DNA from: Natronosalvus rutilus
Lineage (GTDB): Archaea; Halobacteriota; Halobacteria; Halobacteriales; Natrialbaceae
Assembly: GCF_024204665.1 (NCBI RefSeq)
Contig: NZ_CP100355.1
Span: forward strand, 434,001 to 498,000
DNA: 64,000 nucleotides
Direction: 5' to 3'
The position numbers and the translations under genes were made by a program. Under the pieces are notes generated by a model. The model was not told the origin of the DNA. It did no database searches and was given only the letters and a program-made list of their open reading frames with translations. Below, one piece after another: positions 17,237-57,572 of this stretch (position 1 is the first letter of the stretch; each line of letters opens with the position of its first letter).

Positions 17237-17746
17237 ATGCTGTCAATGAAAGATACCGTACCCAAGAACGAGACGATCAAGCGAGTTGCACACCACGTCG
17301 AAACGTCGGTGCGTCGTTCCAATCCAGTCACCCTGGTGAAAGGACCCCAGCGGAGCGATTCGACGGACGACCGACCGGCCACCACCGACAGCCCGGACGG
17401 TCCACACAACGCCGGCGGACGAGTTCTGGAGACGCCACGTCAGCGAAAGACCGCCACCTGTCTGCTTGAGCACGGAACGAACGGGCCCGTGAAGATGGGG
17501 GCCCTCGCCGAACGAGTCGCCGCCCGGGAACACGAGACGGCGGTCGCCGACCTCGAGGACGGCCAGCGCAAGCGAGTGTACGTCTCGCTCTCTACGTCGG
17601 TTCTCCCGGAACTGGACCGGCTCGGGCTCCTCGAGTACGACAAATCCCGTGGGCTTGTGTACCCGACTGACCAGCTACAGCAGTTCCGTCCTCACCTCGG
17701 CGCGTCGGCAGGCGAACCGGCGGCCACCGCTAACGCGGGTCAGTAG
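17237..17746 (+). CDS. DUF7344-like winged-helix protein
   Basis: 169 residues. A poorly structured N-terminus (1-60) precedes a winged-helix segment: VLETPRQRKTATCLLEHG, VKMGALAERVAAREHET, then QRKRVYVSLSTSVLPELDRL and YDKSRGLVYPTD. This is the pattern of the haloarchaeal DUF7344 family (compare the gene at 60452-61042 in this window). Such proteins are thought to be DNA-binding; none is well characterised. Its last 7 nt overlap the end of the convergent acidic-protein gene. Confidence 0.65.
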   Translation: MLSMKDTVPKNETIKRVAHHVETSVRRSNPVTLVKGPQRSDSTDDRPATTDSPDGPHNAGGRVLETPRQRKTATCLLEHGTNGPVKMGALAERVAAREHETAVADLEDGQRKRVYVSLSTSVLPELDRLGLLEYDKSRGLVYPTDQLQQFRPHLGASAGEPAATANAGQ

Positions 17747-18498
17747 TTCTTGAACAGGAGTGCGCGCACGTCGTCTTTCGTCTGCACGTCCTCGGTGGAG
17801 TCATCGGGGAGCGTGACCCGGTAGCGATAGTCCGCGGCGGGTGATTCGTCCCACTTGTCGTCGTGGGTGTCGAGGAGGTTCATCATCTTGTTCAGCATGT
17901 CGTCGTCGTCGGCGGCGCCGCCGCTGTCGTCTGCGTCCTCGTCCTCGTTTTCGTCGTCTGCGTCTCCGTCCGCCTCGTCTTCGTTCTCGCTGGTATCCTC
18001 GTCTTCGTTCTCACCCTCGCCCTCGTCCTCGCCCGCGCTCTCACCGTCGGCCTCGTCGGTGTCGGCATCGGCTGGGTTCTCGTCGCCCCCGGTGTCGTCC
18101 TCGCTCGAGTCCCCGGTATCAGTATCCGCATCACCATCCGACTCGGGTTTCGCCGAGTCCGCATCGGCGTCGCCGTCACCCTCGTCGTCGGCAGCGCTCG
18201 TCTCCGCTTCCTCGTCGTAACTGACTTCTTCCACCCCGTCGACCTGGGAGCCCGACTCGATCGCCGACTCGACGGCCGCCGCCACGTCGTCCGTCGCCGT
18301 TCGACCCGAGGTGTCGGCCTCAAAGTCGACGTCGAGGGCGTCCTCACCATCTTCGCCTGCCTCGAGATTGTCGATCAGAAACTGGATCGCGTCGCGTTCG
18401 CGTACGAAGCCGTACCTGCCGACGACGTCCTCGGAGATGGCCGCTCGCAATCGCTGGATCACCGCGTACTGTTCGTCCGTGACCTCGACTGTCTTCAT
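17740..18498 (-). CDS. Acidic protein with ribbon-helix-like N-terminus and D/E-rich linker
   Basis: 252 residues from ATG 18498 (MKTVEVTDEQYAVIQRL). Residues 1-50 look like a compact sensor/binding head with VVGRYGFVRERDAIQFLID. A long linker (about 90-195) consists almost only of Asp, Glu, Ala, Gly, Ser and Asn. The C-terminus is again folded: MLNKMMNLLDTHDDKW and YRYRVTLPDDS followed by DDVRALLFKNY. A two-domain protein joined by a flexible polyanion. No family recognised beyond conserved haloarchaeal protein. Confidence 0.7.
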   Translation of the reverse strand: MKTVEVTDEQYAVIQRLRAAISEDVVGRYGFVRERDAIQFLIDNLEAGEDGEDALDVDFEADTSGRTATDDVAAAVESAIESGSQVDGVEEVSYDEEAETSAADDEGDGDADADSAKPESDGDADTDTGDSSEDDTGGDENPADADTDEADGESAGEDEGEGENEDEDTSENEDEADGDADDENEDEDADDSGGAADDDDMLNKMMNLLDTHDDKWDESPAADYRYRVTLPDDSTEDVQTKDDVRALLFKNY

Positions 18499-18698
18499 AC
18501 CTGACTGATGTGTCGAGGGGTACATATAGGTGGGTGCGTCTGTCGGTAGGCATATCGAGCTGTCAGGCTGACAGATCGGCAGAACGCCGGAAGATCAGGG
18601 CGCAAGGGCGCCAGCTCACCAGAACGCAAGGGTATCAACTCGCCAACTCACCAAAGCCAGGGACGCCGCGTTGGCGACCCACACATATCACGAACCGC

Positions 18699-33126: not shown

Positions 33127-34359
33127 GTGCGCGTGCACTCGAACGACCGGGATCGGATCGTCCTCGCGACGGTCGTCTTCGCCGTGCTCTTCTCTCAGCT
33201 ACTGCTCTACCCGGGCATCGCGGACCTCGTCGAGGCTCTCGGGGCGGGAGAAACCACCTCACCGTTGACGTCGACCGCACTCGACGCCAGTATGTGGTTC
33301 CTCGTCGCGGAGTTCGCCGCCTACGTCGTCTTCGTCGGACTCTGGGGAATCGCCAGCGACGCAACCGGCAAGCGGACGCCGTTCATCGTCGCGAGCGCCC
33401 TCGCCGGGAGTGCCGGCTACGCCGTCCTCGCGCTCATCGGCGCGTTCGCCTCGCTCTCCTTCGGGGGCGTTCTCCTCTTGCGCGCGTTCCAGGGAGCGAT
33501 GACCGTCGGCGCGCTCTCGCTCACTATGACGATGCTCATGGACCTCGAGGGCGGCCACGGTCGGAACATGGGCGCGGCCGGGATCGCCATCGGTCTCGGC
33601 GCCGCGATGGGTGCCCCGGTCGGCGGGCAACTCACGGCGGTCGACCCCCTCGCCCCGCTCGCGGCCGCAGCCGTCTTGCTCGGTCTGGTCGGCCTCCTCG
33701 TGACCCTCGCGACCGACCGCGCACCCAGCACGCGCCGGCGAGCGAGCGCGATCCTGGAGGGCGTCCGACGACGACCGACGCTGTCGATCCCCTACGCGTT
33801 CGGCTTCATCGACCGGCTGACGGCTGGCTTTTTCGCGCTGGTCGGGACGCTGTACTTTCAGGCGACGTTCGAGGTGGACGCCGCCACGACCGGCCTCCTG
33901 CTCGCGTGCTTTTTCGCCCCGTTCGCCCTCCTGCAGTACCCCATGGGCGCGCTCTCGGATCGCATTGGCCGGACCGTCCCCATCGTCGTCGGGTCGCTCT
34001 GTTACGGCGTCGGCATTCTCGCGGTCGGCGCCGCTCCATCGGTTACCCTCGCCGCGGCGATGATGGTCGTCGTCGGCATCCTGGGGGCGCTCATCTCGCC
34101 GGCGACGATGGCCCTCGTCACCGACCTCGCGGCCGACGGCGAGCGCGGATTGGCGATGGCCGGGTTCAACCTGGCCGGCAGCCTCGGCTTTCTCGGCGGA
34201 TTCCTCATCGGAGGCACGGTCGCCAGCCAGTACGGCTACGAGCTGGCGTTCCTCGTCGTCGGCGGCCTCGAGATCGCGATCGCCATCGTCGCCGCACCCG
34301 CGTTCGTACACCTCTCGCTCGGCCGGGGATCGCTGTCGCTCGAGGGTCGAGACGTCTAG
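33127..34359 (+). CDS. MFS transporter
   Basis: 410 residues, about 12 helices. Motif A as GIASDATGKRTPF between helices 2 and 3 and again GALSDRIGRTVP in the second half, which marks a drug:H+ antiporter-like carrier. The start is a GTG (33127 or 33133); no ATG fits. Substrate unknown. Divergent from metY with 160 bp between. Confidence 0.85.
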   Translation: MRVHSNDRDRIVLATVVFAVLFSQLLLYPGIADLVEALGAGETTSPLTSTALDASMWFLVAEFAAYVVFVGLWGIASDATGKRTPFIVASALAGSAGYAVLALIGAFASLSFGGVLLLRAFQGAMTVGALSLTMTMLMDLEGGHGRNMGAAGIAIGLGAAMGAPVGGQLTAVDPLAPLAAAAVLLGLVGLLVTLATDRAPSTRRRASAILEGVRRRPTLSIPYAFGFIDRLTAGFFALVGTLYFQATFEVDAATTGLLLACFFAPFALLQYPMGALSDRIGRTVPIVVGSLCYGVGILAVGAAPSVTLAAAMMVVVGILGALISPATMALVTDLAADGERGLAMAGFNLAGSLGFLGGFLIGGTVASQYGYELAFLVVGGLEIAIAIVAAPAFVHLSLGRGSLSLEGRDV

Positions 34360-34507: not shown

Positions 34508-34516
34508 GTTATATCC
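34508..34516 (+). promoter_or_regulatory. TATA box of the NET-repeat lipoprotein
   Basis: GTTATATCC lies 22 nt before ATG 34534 and 28 nt before ATG 34540; the second spacing fits a leaderless message best, so the true start may be six bases downstream of the one annotated. Confidence 0.45.
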
Positions 34517-34533: not shown

Positions 34534-34890
34534 ATGAGTATGGGATCAAAACAACCCTACTCACGACGACGAATACTCGGTATTTCAGGCGTTGCGCTTT
34601 CGGCTGTCCTCGCTGGATGTGGCGGGCCGAGCGACGAGGAGGGTGCGCCAGAGAACGAGACCGGTATTGGCGACGACAACGAAACTGATACCGGCGCTGG
34701 CGACGAGGAGGACAACGAAACCGACATCGGCGACGATAACGAAACCGACGACAACGAAACCGACATCGGCGACGATAACGAAACCGACGACAACGAAACC
34801 GACATCGGCGACGATAACGAAACCGACGACAACGAAACCGACATCGGCGACGATAACGAAACCGACGACAACGAAACCGAAGACGAATAG
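34534..34890 (+). CDS. Tat lipoprotein made of Asn-Glu-Thr sequon repeats
   Basis: 118 residues. N-terminus with SRRRILGISG and VLAGC gives a Tat signal and lipobox with Cys29. The mature chain of about 90 residues has almost no other residues than Asp, Asn, Glu, Thr, Ile and Gly; it contains eleven N-E-T tripeptides. N-x-S/T is the sequon for archaeal AglB N-glycosylation, so every NET could carry a glycan. The repeated unit is 13 residues (DNETDIGDDNETD) from four exact 39-bp copies. A lipid-anchored, strongly negative and possibly densely glycosylated stalk without any folded domain. No family recognised. Confidence 0.7.
   Translation: MSMGSKQPYSRRRILGISGVALSAVLAGCGGPSDEEGAPENETGIGDDNETDTGAGDEEDNETDIGDDNETDDNETDIGDDNETDDNETDIGDDNETDDNETDIGDDNETDDNETEDE
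34711..34880 (+). repeat. 39-bp in-frame tandem repeat
   Basis: Four full copies (34711-34749, 34750-34788, 34789-34827, 34828-34866) plus a partial fifth. Copies look identical base for base, which points to recent expansion or to recombination keeping them alike. Not a CRISPR: no spacers and it is inside a coding frame. Confidence 0.9.
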
Positions 34891-35159: not shown

Positions 35160-36194
35160 ATGACTGATACGAGAGATATCGTGCTCTTTCTCGGGCTCGC
35201 GCTCGTCTGGGGCACCTCGTTCGCGGCGATCGAGATCGGCCTGGCGACCGTGCCTCCGATCCTCTTCGCCGCGTTTCGATTCGACGTCGCGACACTCCTC
35301 TTCGTCGCCGCCGTCGCCCTCACCGGTGCGTCCTGGCGGCCGAGCGTTCGAGCCGACTGGCTCCTGATCGCCGTCGGCGGCGGCCTCCTCGTCGGCGCCC
35401 ACTTCGCGCTGCTCTTTCTCGGCCAGTCGATGGTCTCGAGCAGCGTCGCGGCGGTCGTCCTCAGCCTGACGCCCATCGTGACGCCGCCGCTGGCGCTCGC
35501 CTTGCTCCCCCGTGAGCAGATTCGCCCACAGGCCGTCGTCGGGTTGTTGCTGGGACTGGTCGGCGTCAGCACGATCGCCCTCGAGGGCGGTTCGTTCGGC
35601 GGCCAGGCCCTCGGTGTCGGCCTGTTGTTCGTCTCCGCCGTCGTCTTCGCCCTGGGTTCGGTGCTGACCGAACGTACCCGGGGAACGCTGCCGATCGTCT
35701 CCCAGCAGGCCTGGGCGATGGGCCTCGGCGCACTCGTCCTGCACACCCTCAGCGGCCTCCACCCCGCCGAGACCCTGGTCGGCCTCGAGGTGACGACCGA
35801 CGCGGTGCTCGCCCTGGCGTACCTCGCCGTCGTCGCCACCGGCGGCGGGTTCTTCGTCTACTTCGTCCTCCTCGAGCGCATCGGGGCGACGGAGCTCAGT
35901 CTCGTCAACTACGCCGTGCCGGTCGTCGCAGCGGCCGTCGGCTGGGCGGCGCTGGGCGAGTCGCTCACCGTCGGGACGGTCGCGGGGTTCACGCTGATCA
36001 TCGTCGGCTTCGCGCTGTGTAAACTCGGCGCCCTCTGGCAGACGGCCGCGCCCGCGATCGGCTACGGTCCCTACCGTCCGAGCGACACCGACGGCGTCGT
36101 CGTCGGAGGGAACGTCTACCTCGTGGACGAAGGCCAGGACCGAACCCCCGAATCGACGCGGGCGACTCGAGGCGACGCCGTCGCTGCGGACTAG
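35160..36194 (+). CDS. EamA/DMT-family transporter
   Basis: 344 residues with ten helices in two EamA repeats. First repeat: LVWGTSFAAIEIGLATVPP near the start; second: TGGGFFVYFVLLERIGATEL. After helix 10 follows a ~60-residue hydrophilic tail. DMT carriers export or import metabolites such as amino acids; substrate unknown. Intergenic DNA upstream (34891-35159) shows nothing else of note. Confidence 0.85.
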   Translation: MTDTRDIVLFLGLALVWGTSFAAIEIGLATVPPILFAAFRFDVATLLFVAAVALTGASWRPSVRADWLLIAVGGGLLVGAHFALLFLGQSMVSSSVAAVVLSLTPIVTPPLALALLPREQIRPQAVVGLLLGLVGVSTIALEGGSFGGQALGVGLLFVSAVVFALGSVLTERTRGTLPIVSQQAWAMGLGALVLHTLSGLHPAETLVGLEVTTDAVLALAYLAVVATGGGFFVYFVLLERIGATELSLVNYAVPVVAAAVGWAALGESLTVGTVAGFTLIIVGFALCKLGALWQTAAPAIGYGPYRPSDTDGVVVGGNVYLVDEGQDRTPESTRATRGDAVAAD

Positions 36195-36311: not shown

Positions 36312-37433
36312 GTGAGCCCCGTGACCGAGAAACGCGAATACAGAGACGACTACCCCGACAAGACGCTGTACATTCCGGGTCCGACCGAAGTGCGCGAGGA
36401 CGTCATCGAGGCGATGTGCGAGCCGATGTTCGGCCACCGGATGGACCGCATGACCGACCTCTACACGACCATCGTCGAGGACACGAAGGACTTCCTCGGC
36501 ACCGACAACAACGTGATCGTCCTCACGGGGTCGGGAACCGAGTTCATGGAGAGTTCGATCCTCAACCTCGTCGACGAGCACGTCCTCGTCACGACCTGCG
36601 GGAGCTTCAGCGAGCGCCAGGCCAATGTCGCCGAACGCCTCGGCAAGACCGTCGACACCCTCGAGTACGAGTGGGGGCAGGCGGTGAAACCAGAGGGCGT
36701 GCGCGAGCGCCTCGAGGAGAGCGACACCGACTACGACGTCGTCACCTGCGTAATGAACGAGAGTTCGACCGGCGTCCGCAATCCCGTAGAGGAAATCGGC
36801 GACGTCGTCGCCGAGTACCCTGACACCTACTTCGTCGTCGACGCCGTCTCCGCGCTGGGAGGCGATTACGTCGACATCGACGCCCACGGCATCGACGTCA
36901 TCTTCACCTCGGTCCAGAAGGCGTTCGCCATGCCGCCCGGACTCGCCGTCTGCGTCGTCAGCGAGGACGCCTACGAGCGCGAACTCGAGAGCGATTCCGC
37001 GTCCTGGTACGGCGGCTTCCAGCGAACTATCGACTACTACGACCGGAAGGGCCAGACCCACTCGACGCCTGCCATCCCGGTCATGCTCGCGTACCGAACA
37101 CAGATGAAACACATGCTCGAGGAGGGTCACGACGCACGCAACGAGCGCCACCGGGAAATGGCCGAGTACACCCAGGAGTGGGCCCGCGAGCACTTCGACA
37201 TGTTCCCCGAAGAGGGCTACGAGTCCCAGACGGTGAGCTGCATCGAGAACACCCGGGACATCGACGTCGCCGGTACCATCGAGGCCGTCTCTGAGGAGTG
37301 CGACATGGTCTTCTCGAACGGCTACGGCTCGGCACTGGGCGAGAAGACGTTCCGCATCGGTCACATGGGCGAACACGATCTCGAGTCCATCGAAGCGTTG
37401 ACCGACGCAATCGAGGACGTCGCCGGGTTGTGA
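36312..37433 (+). CDS. Alanine-glyoxylate-type (class V) aminotransferase
   Basis: 373 residues from GTG 36312, or nine bases later from GTG 36321. Fold type I class V: YIPGPTEVREDVIEAM at the start, VVDAVSALGGDYVDID with PLP-contacting Asp, and FTSVQKAFAMPPG with the Schiff-base lysine. It matches archaeal alanine-glyoxylate / serine-pyruvate aminotransferases, which move amino groups between Ala or Ser and glyoxylate or pyruvate. Exact donor unknown. Confidence 0.88.
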   Translation: MSPVTEKREYRDDYPDKTLYIPGPTEVREDVIEAMCEPMFGHRMDRMTDLYTTIVEDTKDFLGTDNNVIVLTGSGTEFMESSILNLVDEHVLVTTCGSFSERQANVAERLGKTVDTLEYEWGQAVKPEGVRERLEESDTDYDVVTCVMNESSTGVRNPVEEIGDVVAEYPDTYFVVDAVSALGGDYVDIDAHGIDVIFTSVQKAFAMPPGLAVCVVSEDAYERELESDSASWYGGFQRTIDYYDRKGQTHSTPAIPVMLAYRTQMKHMLEEGHDARNERHREMAEYTQEWAREHFDMFPEEGYESQTVSCIENTRDIDVAGTIEAVSEECDMVFSNGYGSALGEKTFRIGHMGEHDLESIEALTDAIEDVAGL

Positions 37434-52113: not shown

Positions 52114-53415
52114 TCACGCGTCACCGGACAGCTCCGAGGCCGTCACGACCTGGACGTCGGTCGAATCGACGTACTCGAGCAGGTCGACGAACGCGTCCTC
52201 GGACATCCCGTCGGCACCGCCGATCTCCTCGAAGCGGATCACGGCGAGTTGACCGTACTGGGCGGCGTAGTCGATGTACCGAGTCACTTCCGAGCCAGCC
52301 GTTCCCGAGAACGTACCGACGTTGTGCGGGTCGGTGAGCGGAAGTCCGTTCGGGCCGCCTCCGTAGCGGAACGCCACTTTGTAGTGGTCCTGGACCAGGT
52401 CGTAGGTGTTCGGTCCCATAATGTTACGCGGCGTGACGAAGTAGTTGGCTCCGTCTTCGAACCCGCGGTGCTCGAGGAACTTCTTCGTCCGTTCCATCGC
52501 GCCCTCCTGTTGCTCGCGCGTGAACTCGTTGATGTTTCTGGAGCCGGTTCGCGGGCGAGCGGCCATGTCCCAGCCGGCTTCTTCGAGGTCCTGCATCTGG
52601 TCGTGGGTGAGGCGTCCGGTCTCGCCGACTGCTTCGGGGATAACAGCCTCGACACCAGCGAAGCCGAACGACTCCATGTGCTCGAACGCGTTTACGTGGT
52701 GTGACTCGAGGGTGCCGTCGAAGAGGAACAGCACCGATCCCTGGTCCGGGCGCTCGGTCACGCGAAGGTCGTCGATCGCAAAGTCGATCGGACCCTCGTT
52801 CGAGCCGCGTCGGTGAGCGATGACCCGGAATTCGCGGACGTCCGTGAGGTCGGGCGAGGTATCGACGTTCGTCGTCCCGAAGTCGACGCGGACCCAGCGG
52901 TCGACCGGTCCGGTGAGCGTCCGACGCAACGCAACCTTGTTCCGCGCGTTCGGTGCGAGGACTTCCAGCGTGATCATCAACTGTTCTCGGCCCGAGTACT
53001 TGACGGCCATCGAGAAGGCCGCGTTGGACAGGTCCATGCTCTCGGGGAGCATGAACGAGGAACCAGCGGACTCGTTGTTCTCACCTGCGTGCAGCCGGGC
53101 GGACTGAGATCCCGCGTAGGGGTCGTCAGTCGTTGCCTCGATGGAGCCGCCGTCGAGCAACGTAGCCCAGTTGTCGAGGGATTCGAAGTCCTCGAGCGTC
53201 TCGCCCGGAAGGTGATCGAGTTCGCCGTTCGAGTTGTCCTGGGGGGACTCGGTCTCGTTACCGTTGCCGGTGTCAGAGCCGTCCGACGAGTTCGTCTCGT
53301 TGTCACTCGAGTCGGACGGAGACGAGCCCCCGTCGTTCGAGAGACAGCCCGCCAGTCCGAGTGCACCAACCGTCCCAGCAGTACGAATGAACGATCGTCG
53401 ATTTCGGTACGTCAT
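52114..53415 (-). CDS. Deacetylase-like Tat lipoprotein, catalytic motifs lost
   Basis: 433 residues from ATG 53415. Tat signal RNRRSFIRTAG with lipobox LAGC (Cys24), Asn/Asp/Ser-rich linker (25-65), a beta-sandwich (about 75-220) and a NodB-like barrel (227-430). Compared with the paralogue at 56170-57534 the active-site motifs are changed: LFDGT (231-235) for SWDDG, ARPRTGSR (286-293) without His, and IRFEE (393-397) for NFHEF. So the protein keeps fold and anchor but probably not hydrolysis; a glycan-binding or structural role is likely. Confidence 0.8.
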   Translation of the reverse strand: MTYRNRRSFIRTAGTVGALGLAGCLSNDGGSSPSDSSDNETNSSDGSDTGNGNETESPQDNSNGELDHLPGETLEDFESLDNWATLLDGGSIEATTDDPYAGSQSARLHAGENNESAGSSFMLPESMDLSNAAFSMAVKYSGREQLMITLEVLAPNARNKVALRRTLTGPVDRWVRVDFGTTNVDTSPDLTDVREFRVIAHRRGSNEGPIDFAIDDLRVTERPDQGSVLFLFDGTLESHHVNAFEHMESFGFAGVEAVIPEAVGETGRLTHDQMQDLEEAGWDMAARPRTGSRNINEFTREQQEGAMERTKKFLEHRGFEDGANYFVTPRNIMGPNTYDLVQDHYKVAFRYGGGPNGLPLTDPHNVGTFSGTAGSEVTRYIDYAAQYGQLAVIRFEEIGGADGMSEDAFVDLLEYVDSTDVQVVTASELSGDA

Positions 53416-53443
53416 CACCAGAGTCGTCAACACGTTGCGCCTT

Positions 53444-53453
53444 TCTTATAGAG
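53444..53453 (-). promoter_or_regulatory. TATA box of the catalytically degenerate deacetylase gene
   Basis: On the minus strand CTCTATAAGA, about 34 nt before ATG 53415. The expected transcript start near 53422 excludes the longer ORF start at 53433. Confidence 0.45.
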
Positions 53454-56169: not shown

Positions 56170-57534
56170 TCAGTTTCCGGACGTGCGCATCTTCCAGAGT
56201 TCGTCGAACGTGATGACCTCCACGTCGGACTCGTCGATGTACGCGAGCAACGCCTCGTAGTCCTCCTCGGACATGGTGTTGTTTGCGGAGAACTCGTGGA
56301 AGTTCAGGATCGTACACTGATTGTACGCGCCAGCGAGGTCCACACAGCGTTTGGCGATGTCGAGGTCGTGGCCGATCGTCCGGGGAAGTGCCAGCGGATC
56401 GAAGCCGTGGACGTTCGTGGTATTCACGTTTCCGGCCTGGTTGAAGCCGCCACAGTAGTGGTACTTCGAGATGTACTCGAGGCTGGTGGCGTCGTAGCTG
56501 TTGTGTGGGTAGACGATGAAATCCGCGCCCGTGAACTCGTGCTGGATGAGCCAGTTCTTGGCCCCCTTGAGGCGACCGTCCAGTTCGTCCTCGCTCTCGT
56601 ACTCGGCCATCCGGTCGTGTCTCCCGTGGGTAACGATCTGGTCGCCCGCTTCCTGTCGCTCTTTGAGCTGCGAGGTCGACATGATCCCCTCGCGAGCCTC
56701 CTCGGACCACCGGGGGACGACAGCCTGGACCGCATTGAACCCGTACTCGTCGTGAAGGGGGCTCGCTTTCTCGAGGAAGTCCAGGGACCCGTCGTCCCAG
56801 GATAACATCACGTATCCACTGTCTGCCGTCGGAACTGCACGCAGGTCGTCGACCCACACCTCCGCCTCCGGCATCGAGTGAAGCACCTGGATCTGGAGGG
56901 TGGCGATGTCGTTCATCATCGGCTCGATCGAGCTCTCCTCGAACACGCCGGGGCTCGAGCGGAACCACCCGACGTCGGGTGTGCGGTAGGTGATCTCCCG
57001 AAGGGAGTAGATTCGCTCGCTTCCGTAGGAGTCGACGACACGGATGTTGATGGTGATCTTGTCCGGGGTCGTCGTTCGCACGGCGAACGACAGGTCGAGA
57101 TCGGTCAGGTCGACGTCCGAGAGTTCACGTTCGACGACGATGTTTTCGCCCTCTCCCCCCGTGAGGCGGAGGCTCTGTGACCCGTCGAAGGCGATCTCCG
57201 TGTCCGCTTCGCCCGACCCCTGTACGACTTCCCACGGTCCGAGGTCCTCGAAGTCGTCGATGGAGTCGCCCGCCTGGCGGTACTCCTCGCGGCTGTTGTA
57301 CTCGGTCTCGAGCGCGGGTACGCCGTTTCCGTTCTCGTCTCCCTCGGACTCGTTACCGCCGTCTGAGTCGGAATCGGTGTCGTTACCATTGCCAGTGCTG
57401 TTCCCGTTCCCGTTCCCGTCCCCGTTACCTCTCACGGAGTTCAGGCGATTAGTACAGCCCGCGAGCCCGGCCGCCATCGCAGCCGCACCCGAGGTGGCCA
57501 GGAAGCGTCGCCGCGTCGTATTGTCTCGCGTCAT
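56170..57534 (-). CDS. Polysaccharide-deacetylase-like Tat lipoprotein
   Basis: 454 residues. Tat signal RRRFLATSGAAAM with lipobox LAGC (Cys27), Gly/Asn/Asp linker (30-75), beta-sandwich (about 95-235), NodB-type barrel (240-450). Active-site motifs present: SWDDGS (245-250), THGRHD (302-307; His-x2-His rather than the usual His-x3-His), YPHNSYD (342-348), NFHEF (411-415). It would remove N- or O-acetyl groups from an extracellular polysaccharide while anchored to the membrane. Confidence 0.85.
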   Translation of the reverse strand: MTRDNTTRRRFLATSGAAAMAAGLAGCTNRLNSVRGNGDGNGNGNSTGNGNDTDSDSDGGNESEGDENGNGVPALETEYNSREEYRQAGDSIDDFEDLGPWEVVQGSGEADTEIAFDGSQSLRLTGGEGENIVVERELSDVDLTDLDLSFAVRTTTPDKITINIRVVDSYGSERIYSLREITYRTPDVGWFRSSPGVFEESSIEPMMNDIATLQIQVLHSMPEAEVWVDDLRAVPTADSGYVMLSWDDGSLDFLEKASPLHDEYGFNAVQAVVPRWSEEAREGIMSTSQLKERQEAGDQIVTHGRHDRMAEYESEDELDGRLKGAKNWLIQHEFTGADFIVYPHNSYDATSLEYISKYHYCGGFNQAGNVNTTNVHGFDPLALPRTIGHDLDIAKRCVDLAGAYNQCTILNFHEFSANNTMSEEDYEALLAYIDESDVEVITFDELWKMRTSGN

Positions 57535-57563
57535 TGGTACCCGGCAGTACCGGCAACGGCCCC

Positions 57564-57572
57564 ATTATTATA
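57564..57572 (-). promoter_or_regulatory. TATA box of the deacetylase lipoprotein gene
   Basis: TATAATAAT on the minus strand, about 34 nt before ATG 57534, giving a short leader. Confidence 0.4.

Follow-up and report, generated by a model that had tools for sequence, protein, structure and literature searches.

Mucins are Pro/Ser/Thr-rich, O-glycosylated tandem repeats. On the archaeal side, N-glycoproteins of Haloferax volcanii that carry a lipobox are reported in PMC8241124, several of them of Sec type and one of Tat type (HVO_1624); the same source gives 19 mapped glycosites for HVO_2160 and describes one N-glycan of this species that contains uronic acids. Transfer by TbSTT3A of Trypanosoma brucei is affected most by acidic residues at positions -1 and +1, as stated in PMC5724017, and human N-glycosites avoid disordered, charged stretches according to PMC7142085. 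Here we describe lpA, a short lipoprotein gene of the haloarchaeon Natronosalvus rutilus, for which the titles and abstracts we searched held no lpA-like lipoprotein and no description of sequon-saturated acidic linkers. The main interest lies less in lpA as a single lipoprotein than in a gain of sequons that is coordinated and specific to one clade.

The lpA gene, its locus and its family

All positions refer to the window, the whole 64,000-nucleotide stretch of DNA that was analysed; G000 denotes its genome and G001 to G007 seven other Natronosalvus genomes. The open reading frame as listed (34534-34890, +) begins at an upstream in-frame ATG, 34534, and its translation bears out the lipobox and the eleven N-glycosylation sequons of the preliminary description, all eleven being N-E-T. 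The start is probably the ATG at 34540 instead, because GTG replaces the first ATG in the G006 and G007 homologues and because a TATA-like box lies 26-31 bases upstream of ATG 34540. The protein then has 116 aa and its lipobox cysteine, previously numbered Cys29, becomes Cys27. A box-to-ATG spacing of 26-31 bases is the expectation for a leaderless haloarchaeal transcript, and the box is kept in G000, G006, G007, G001 and G004. The features of the locus are as follows.

33127..34359, + strand: MFS transporter (PF07690), the upstream neighbour that anchors synteny
34509..34514, + strand: TATA-like box (ttatat), 31-26 bases before ATG 34540, putative promoter element
34540..34890, + strand: lpA, short Tat lipoprotein, 116 aa from the likely start (ORF translation and homologue comparison)
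34540..34617, + strand: predicted Tat signal peptide with lipobox, 0 amino acid changes among G000, G006 and G007
34618..34890, + strand: predicted mature chain of lpA from Cys27, 90 aa, charge -45, 11 NET sequons, no fold predicted
34711..34880, + strand: tandem array of 39 bp x 4.4 exact copies (TRF), encoded unit DNETDIGDDNETD
35160..36194, + strand: EamA transporter (PF00892), downstream neighbour
36312..37433, + strand: class V aminotransferase (PF00266), conserved end of the lpA locus

The leader contains a twin arginine in SRRRILG, a hydrophobic stretch and the lipobox LAGC (SRRRILGISGVALSAVLAGC), in agreement with the Tat-lipoprotein pattern. Over the first 35 codons the pairs among G000, G006 and G007 differ by 5, 1 and 4 synonymous changes and by no nonsynonymous change, and G001 and G004 differ by 6 synonymous and 0 nonsynonymous changes; the leader is invariant at the amino acid level within close species groups. 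Judged by these codon counts the leader is under purifying selection, and the synonymous-only changes rule out a decaying pseudogene as far as the leader is concerned.

Six Natronosalvus genomes (G000, G001, G002, G004, G006 and G007) have a short acidic lipoprotein gene flanked by those for MFS and EamA. The G003 relative (L273, identical to the named locus L087) comes after the MFS gene and a cupredoxin, and G005, a 66% complete draft, gave a leader match only. By this synteny lpA is a conserved gene and not a chance expansion; the preliminary description had kept a chance repeat in reserve should relatives be absent, and that explanation falls with the presence of lpA in the MFS-EamA interval of six Natronosalvus regions and in L087/L273. 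Relatives in four other genomes stand at another locus with AzlC, ThiS-family and KaiC-like genes. The EamA sequences grouped G000, G006 and G007 with support 100/99, and we refer to these three as the clade and to G001-G005 as the sisters.

TRF returned a single array of period 39 with 4.4 copies, 100% match and a score of 340, which confirms the exact 39-bp tandem copies reported earlier. All 11 Asn of the mature chain lie within sequons, and 20,000 shuffles of the chain gave a mean of 1.5 and a maximum of 7 sequons against the 11 observed. The chain had been called almost only NET; it is NET-rich, but NET accounts for 33 of the 90 mature residues, and Asp+Glu for 50%. Searches of Pfam and NCBIfam gave no match to lpA, and the Pfam search found no PF00127 domain with its Cys/His/Met copper site. 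AlphaFold2, run on the single sequence, returned a pLDDT of 57.7 and a pTM of 0.12, so no fold is predicted.

Elsewhere in the window, a protein without a visible signal peptide (17740-18594, -) ends in an acidic low-complexity C-terminal tail in which, in contrast to lpA, the Asn residues stand in NED or NPA and none in sequons. Two more Tat lipoproteins (52114-53445, -, and 56170-57564, -) have short Asn/Ser/Thr-rich linkers before the folded part, and these linkers contain NET, NES or NDT.

Its AGCGGP lipobox region and its short, acidic tail without a domain place lpA in a Natrialbaceae family of short acidic CGGPG Tat lipoproteins that we define in this analysis. A leader profile built from ten leaders was searched against 121 Natrialbaceae genomes and matched 121 of 121, so it must take in many ordinary lipoproteins. 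The 30 leader-matched loci all encode short proteins, with mature chains of 36-110 aa and charges of -14 to -62. Sequons number 0 in 17 of them, one in 2 and 4-15 in 11; by a hand sum, 107 of 123 Asn lie in sequons in the 11 sequon-bearing tails vs 2 of 32 in the other 19. A TGNGQ motif occurs in 19 of the 30 matches, 0 of those 19 from Natronosalvus, and is absent from the lpA tail and from the other Natronosalvus members examined. It usually reads EEGTGNGQ followed by D or E, inside otherwise low-complexity acidic tails (L267, L272, L274, L276-L283, L285-L287 and L289-L293). In members of another genus (g8), the tail of the same lipoprotein family appears to have been filled with sequons independently.

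Tail charge and sequon order across Natronosalvus

The tail of lpA turns over while its charge is retained. Mature charges are -45 in G000, -51 in G006, -48 in G007, -50 in G002, -47 in G001 and -34 in G004, and this range in the six syntenic orthologues, together with the lpA sequence, supports the lipid-anchored polyanion proposed in the preliminary description. Sequons number 11, 7 and 11 in G000, G006 and G007 and 0 in the other five Natronosalvus genomes, all of which have Glu/Asp-rich tails. The tail units are NET repeats in the clade, PAEEEEEE in G002 and PEDEEEE in G001 and G004, and Asp+Glu makes up 50-56% of sequon-bearing tails vs 69-72% of the others. The lasting property of lpA, on this comparison of sequences, is a lipid-anchored polyanion and not the sequons. 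Since the relatives in five other genomes have none, the gene does not depend on the sequons and they are not its original state; given the EamA grouping they are most simply a gain in the clade. The PEDEEE tail of G001 and G004 is confined to lpA within those two genomes (6 and 4 matches), which rules out a spread over many loci like that of NET; single matches outside these lpA genes occur in G007 and G003.

The D-N-E-T-D codon pattern was found 32, 41 and 42 times in G000, G006 and G007 vs 4, 3, 0, 2 and 2 times in G001-G005; the reversed order, D-T-E-N-D, gave 5, 4 and 6 vs 1, 1, 2, 2 and 0. Three further surface proteins carry the pattern at loci unlinked to lpA. A second NET lipoprotein, lpC, has a leader unlike that of lpA (L002 / L037:6599-6937; C1:2384601-2384927 in its own genome), adjoins DUF7117 and DUF7528 genes and has orthologues in G006 and G007; a leader pattern search saw none in G001-G004. 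The next protein, which we take to be of DUF7282 type, contains, from the query domain onwards, 20, 19 and 24 sequons in G000, G006 and G007 and 2, 3, 2 and 3 in G001, G004, G003 and G002. The third, named the VTIEE protein after a motif, contains 20, 27 and 29 in the clade and 1, 5 and 5 in G001, G004 and G002. The sister linkers of the DUF7282-type and VTIEE proteins are equally acidic, with units such as PEEDE, VDDEEI, EDYADEEED and DENGVDTDDD. In the DUF7282-type protein, long species-specific acidic repeat arrays stand at the same position (L151 in G001, L152 in G004, L153 in G003, L154 in G002), which points to linker units being replaced as a whole from one species to another.

We then counted Asn in all segments with at least 45% Asp+Glu of lpA, lpC and the DUF7282-type and VTIEE proteins, the count omitting VTIEE of G003 (frame unreadable), all of G005 (no match) and lpA of G003 and G005. 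In the clade 162 of 182 Asn lie in sequons (25.0 expected from shuffles; 8 occurrences of the reversed order), vs 9 of 84 in the sisters (7.1 expected). With each nine-residue context taken once per protein and species, the counts become 134 of 153 vs 9 of 65. In the VTIEE acidic linkers alone, G001, G002 and G004 together have 7 sequons where 5.1-6.0 are expected, and the clade has 54 against 11.8. Copying of DNA between loci was not supported as the route by which NET spread: the longest DNA shared between loci was within synonymous-codon permutations in 17 of 18 pairs (one pair at 0.025, the rest at 0.14 or more), so the copying of one repeat is no evident cause. The folded control, a very large protein containing DUF7282-like domains, has 10, 9 and 7 sequons per 859-aa stretch in G000, G006 and G007, and 6 in 1115 aa in G004 and 4 in 838 in G002, a mild difference only; a G003 match (10 sequons in 397 aa) was left out, as it seems to be another protein.

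This contrast is inflated because the extra proteins were picked by likeness to the NET tail of G000, and for that reason 400 kb was taken from other positions in each of G000, G006, G002 and G001, four of the eight genomes, with crude gene calls and surface classification. In this unselected sample, sequons take in 42 of 95 Asn of surface-type acidic segments in the clade, against 13.2 expected, and 11 of 59 in the sisters, against 7.1 expected; a permutation over proteins gave p=0.03 for surface-type and 0.065 for all proteins. The G000 sample also has a sequon excess in proteins not scored as surface-type, where one protein, resembling the counterpart of a surface-scored G006 protein, gives 9 of 13 sequons. 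Over whole surface-type proteins there is no difference in sequons per 1000 residues (4.02 and 3.95 in the clade vs 4.53 and 3.27 in the sisters). Compared with the selected counts, these figures indicate a strong effect in a few proteins and a weaker one across the genome.

The G000 genome has one STT3/AglB match over the cut-off (PF02516), and lpA thus combines 11 N-X-S/T sequons on an exported-type chain with an oligosaccharyltransferase in its genome, as expected of an N-glycoprotein. AglB is also found in G001, G002 and G004, where these sequons are missing, and the search of the draft genomes G003 and G005 found none. A gain of AglB is therefore not supported as the cause of the sequons, and a change in AglB preference, in the glycan or in selection is required. 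Gene content beside AglB differs among species. Asp or Glu stands at -1 in 114 of 134 clade sequon contexts and at +1 in 129 of 134.

Cupredoxins at the locus and the competing explanations

Of 80 named loci, retained out of 140 MFS relatives, 36 have a same-strand cupredoxin after the MFS relative and 9 have two or more; PF00127 was verified on three. The short lipoprotein lies 3' of a cupredoxin in G001, G002, G004 and L087 and between two cupredoxins in L096; in the window clade the cupredoxin has been lost at the lpA locus. The L091 and L092 cupredoxins have the same CGGP start as lpA. At the lpA locus of a Halovivax (L092:6509-7204), the cupredoxin lipoprotein with this start has a long NET-rich linker that seems to have become sequon-rich independently. 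In Natrinema thermotolerans (L077:7724-8089), a third tandem cupredoxin copy consists of leader and linker in open frame, and cupredoxin-like sequence continues in another frame.

The reading we lean towards, if only modestly, is that lpA is a disordered tethered polyanion whose tail in the clade, like those of at least three other surface proteins, is saturated with D-N-E-T sequons and most likely glycosylated by AglB. We infer that lpA would be Tat-exported and lipid-tethered on the external face of the membrane beneath the S-layer, where its lasting role would be to present a surface tail that is dense, negatively charged and hydrated. Glycosylation of the tails by AglB, the most likely cause of their saturation, would make mucin-like brushes that bear glycans out of acidic tethers; the uronic acids reported in a Haloferax N-glycan suggest that glycans could offset part of the lost tail charge. 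More tentatively, several unlinked acidic linkers could have been converted jointly while the sisters kept theirs acidic and sequon-free. N-glycosylation would then have been redirected onto disordered tethers throughout the clade, either through an AglB that prefers acidic sites or because selection favoured a glycan brush, and acidic glycans would partly stand in for acidic residues. The carrier of archaeal N-glycans envisaged in the preliminary description is plausible for lpA, given AglB, sequon order above chance and acidic context, yet the sequons are absent from five genomes.

That last fact also speaks for a bare polyanion, in which charge and hydration alone matter, NET is one interchangeable acidic composition and the sequons go unused. 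lpA is sequon-free in 5 of 8 genomes of the genus and in 17 of 30 leader relatives, all of them still acidic, and the tails turn over quickly through repeat replacement. We nevertheless consider this explanation unlikely, though the most serious of the rivals, since the order of residues differs and not just their composition: the sister VTIEE linkers, which do contain Asn and Thr, are at chance and those of the clade far above it. If lpA were instead what remains of a tandem, halocyanin-like cupredoxin that lost its copper domain, with a functionless linker grown by slippage, then the cupredoxins usual at the locus, the shared CGGP starts (one with a NET linker) and the Natrinema copy cut down to leader plus linker would be expected. 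Purifying selection on the leader, the conserved promoter-like box, the absence of cupredoxin traces downstream of lpA and the many short lipoproteins elsewhere whose leaders are closer make it improbable; a search beside lpA at relaxed E found no convincing cupredoxin remnant (the best matches had E 0.075, upstream in G007, and 0.17, within the G004 interval). Taken as a statement on the origin of lpA only, separate from the functionless claim, domain loss is plausible, but similar leaders also occur in many short lipoproteins at other places. Least probable of all, and in our view very unlikely, is a surface buffer in which the Asp/Glu tail binds divalent cations or metals near neighbouring transporters or cupredoxin: charge is kept while tail sequence is not, and the neighbours are two transporters, plus a copper protein in sisters, but the tail has no metal-ligand motif, the cupredoxin is lost at the locus in the three NET species, and the relatives beside AzlC and ThiS genes stand at a different locus.

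Should the sequon-saturated tails of the clade indeed be glycosylated, haloarchaea could turn a set of surface tethers from bare polyanions into glycan brushes, or the reverse, within a short span of evolution, and close species would form a natural plus/minus pair for the role of N-glycans on disordered chains. The clade would also offer an archaeal case of acidic-sequon preference. Because human glycosites avoid disorder, as PMC7142085 describes, the pattern would be unusual if its sites are occupied, an exception to the human rule.

Comparison with known systems

lpA shares with the short acidic CGGPG lipoproteins a leader, the AGCGGP lipobox and a domain-less short acidic mature chain, but most relatives outside Natronosalvus have TGNGQ and 17 of 30 are sequon-free. 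Halocyanin-like cupredoxin lipoproteins (PF00127) likewise have a Tat leader, a lipobox and an acidic linker, and occupy the same place between MFS and EamA/aminotransferase; they differ by the copper domain, which lpA does not have. The AglB-dependent N-glycoproteins of H. volcanii resemble lpA in bearing N-X-S/T sequons on exported proteins, lipobox ones included; their sites are mapped in the published account, whereas lpA offers a 90-residue tail with 11 predicted sequons and no folded domain. TbSTT3A acceptor sites share the Asp/Glu residues at and around -1 and +1 described in PMC5724017, but T. brucei is an unrelated lineage, and an acid preference of Natronosalvus AglB would hold by analogy. 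The archaeal mucin stalk suggested in the preliminary description is partly supported, as a clade-wide change in sequon order and not as a true mucin, since the mature chain has 13 Ser+Thr and 2 Pro among 90 residues. Like mucins, lpA would have a disordered repeat chain, held by a lipid or membrane tether, that could carry many glycans; unlike the O-glycosylated, Pro/Ser/Thr-rich mucins, it has N-linked sequons on which glycans are only predicted, and its tail may work like a glycan brush.
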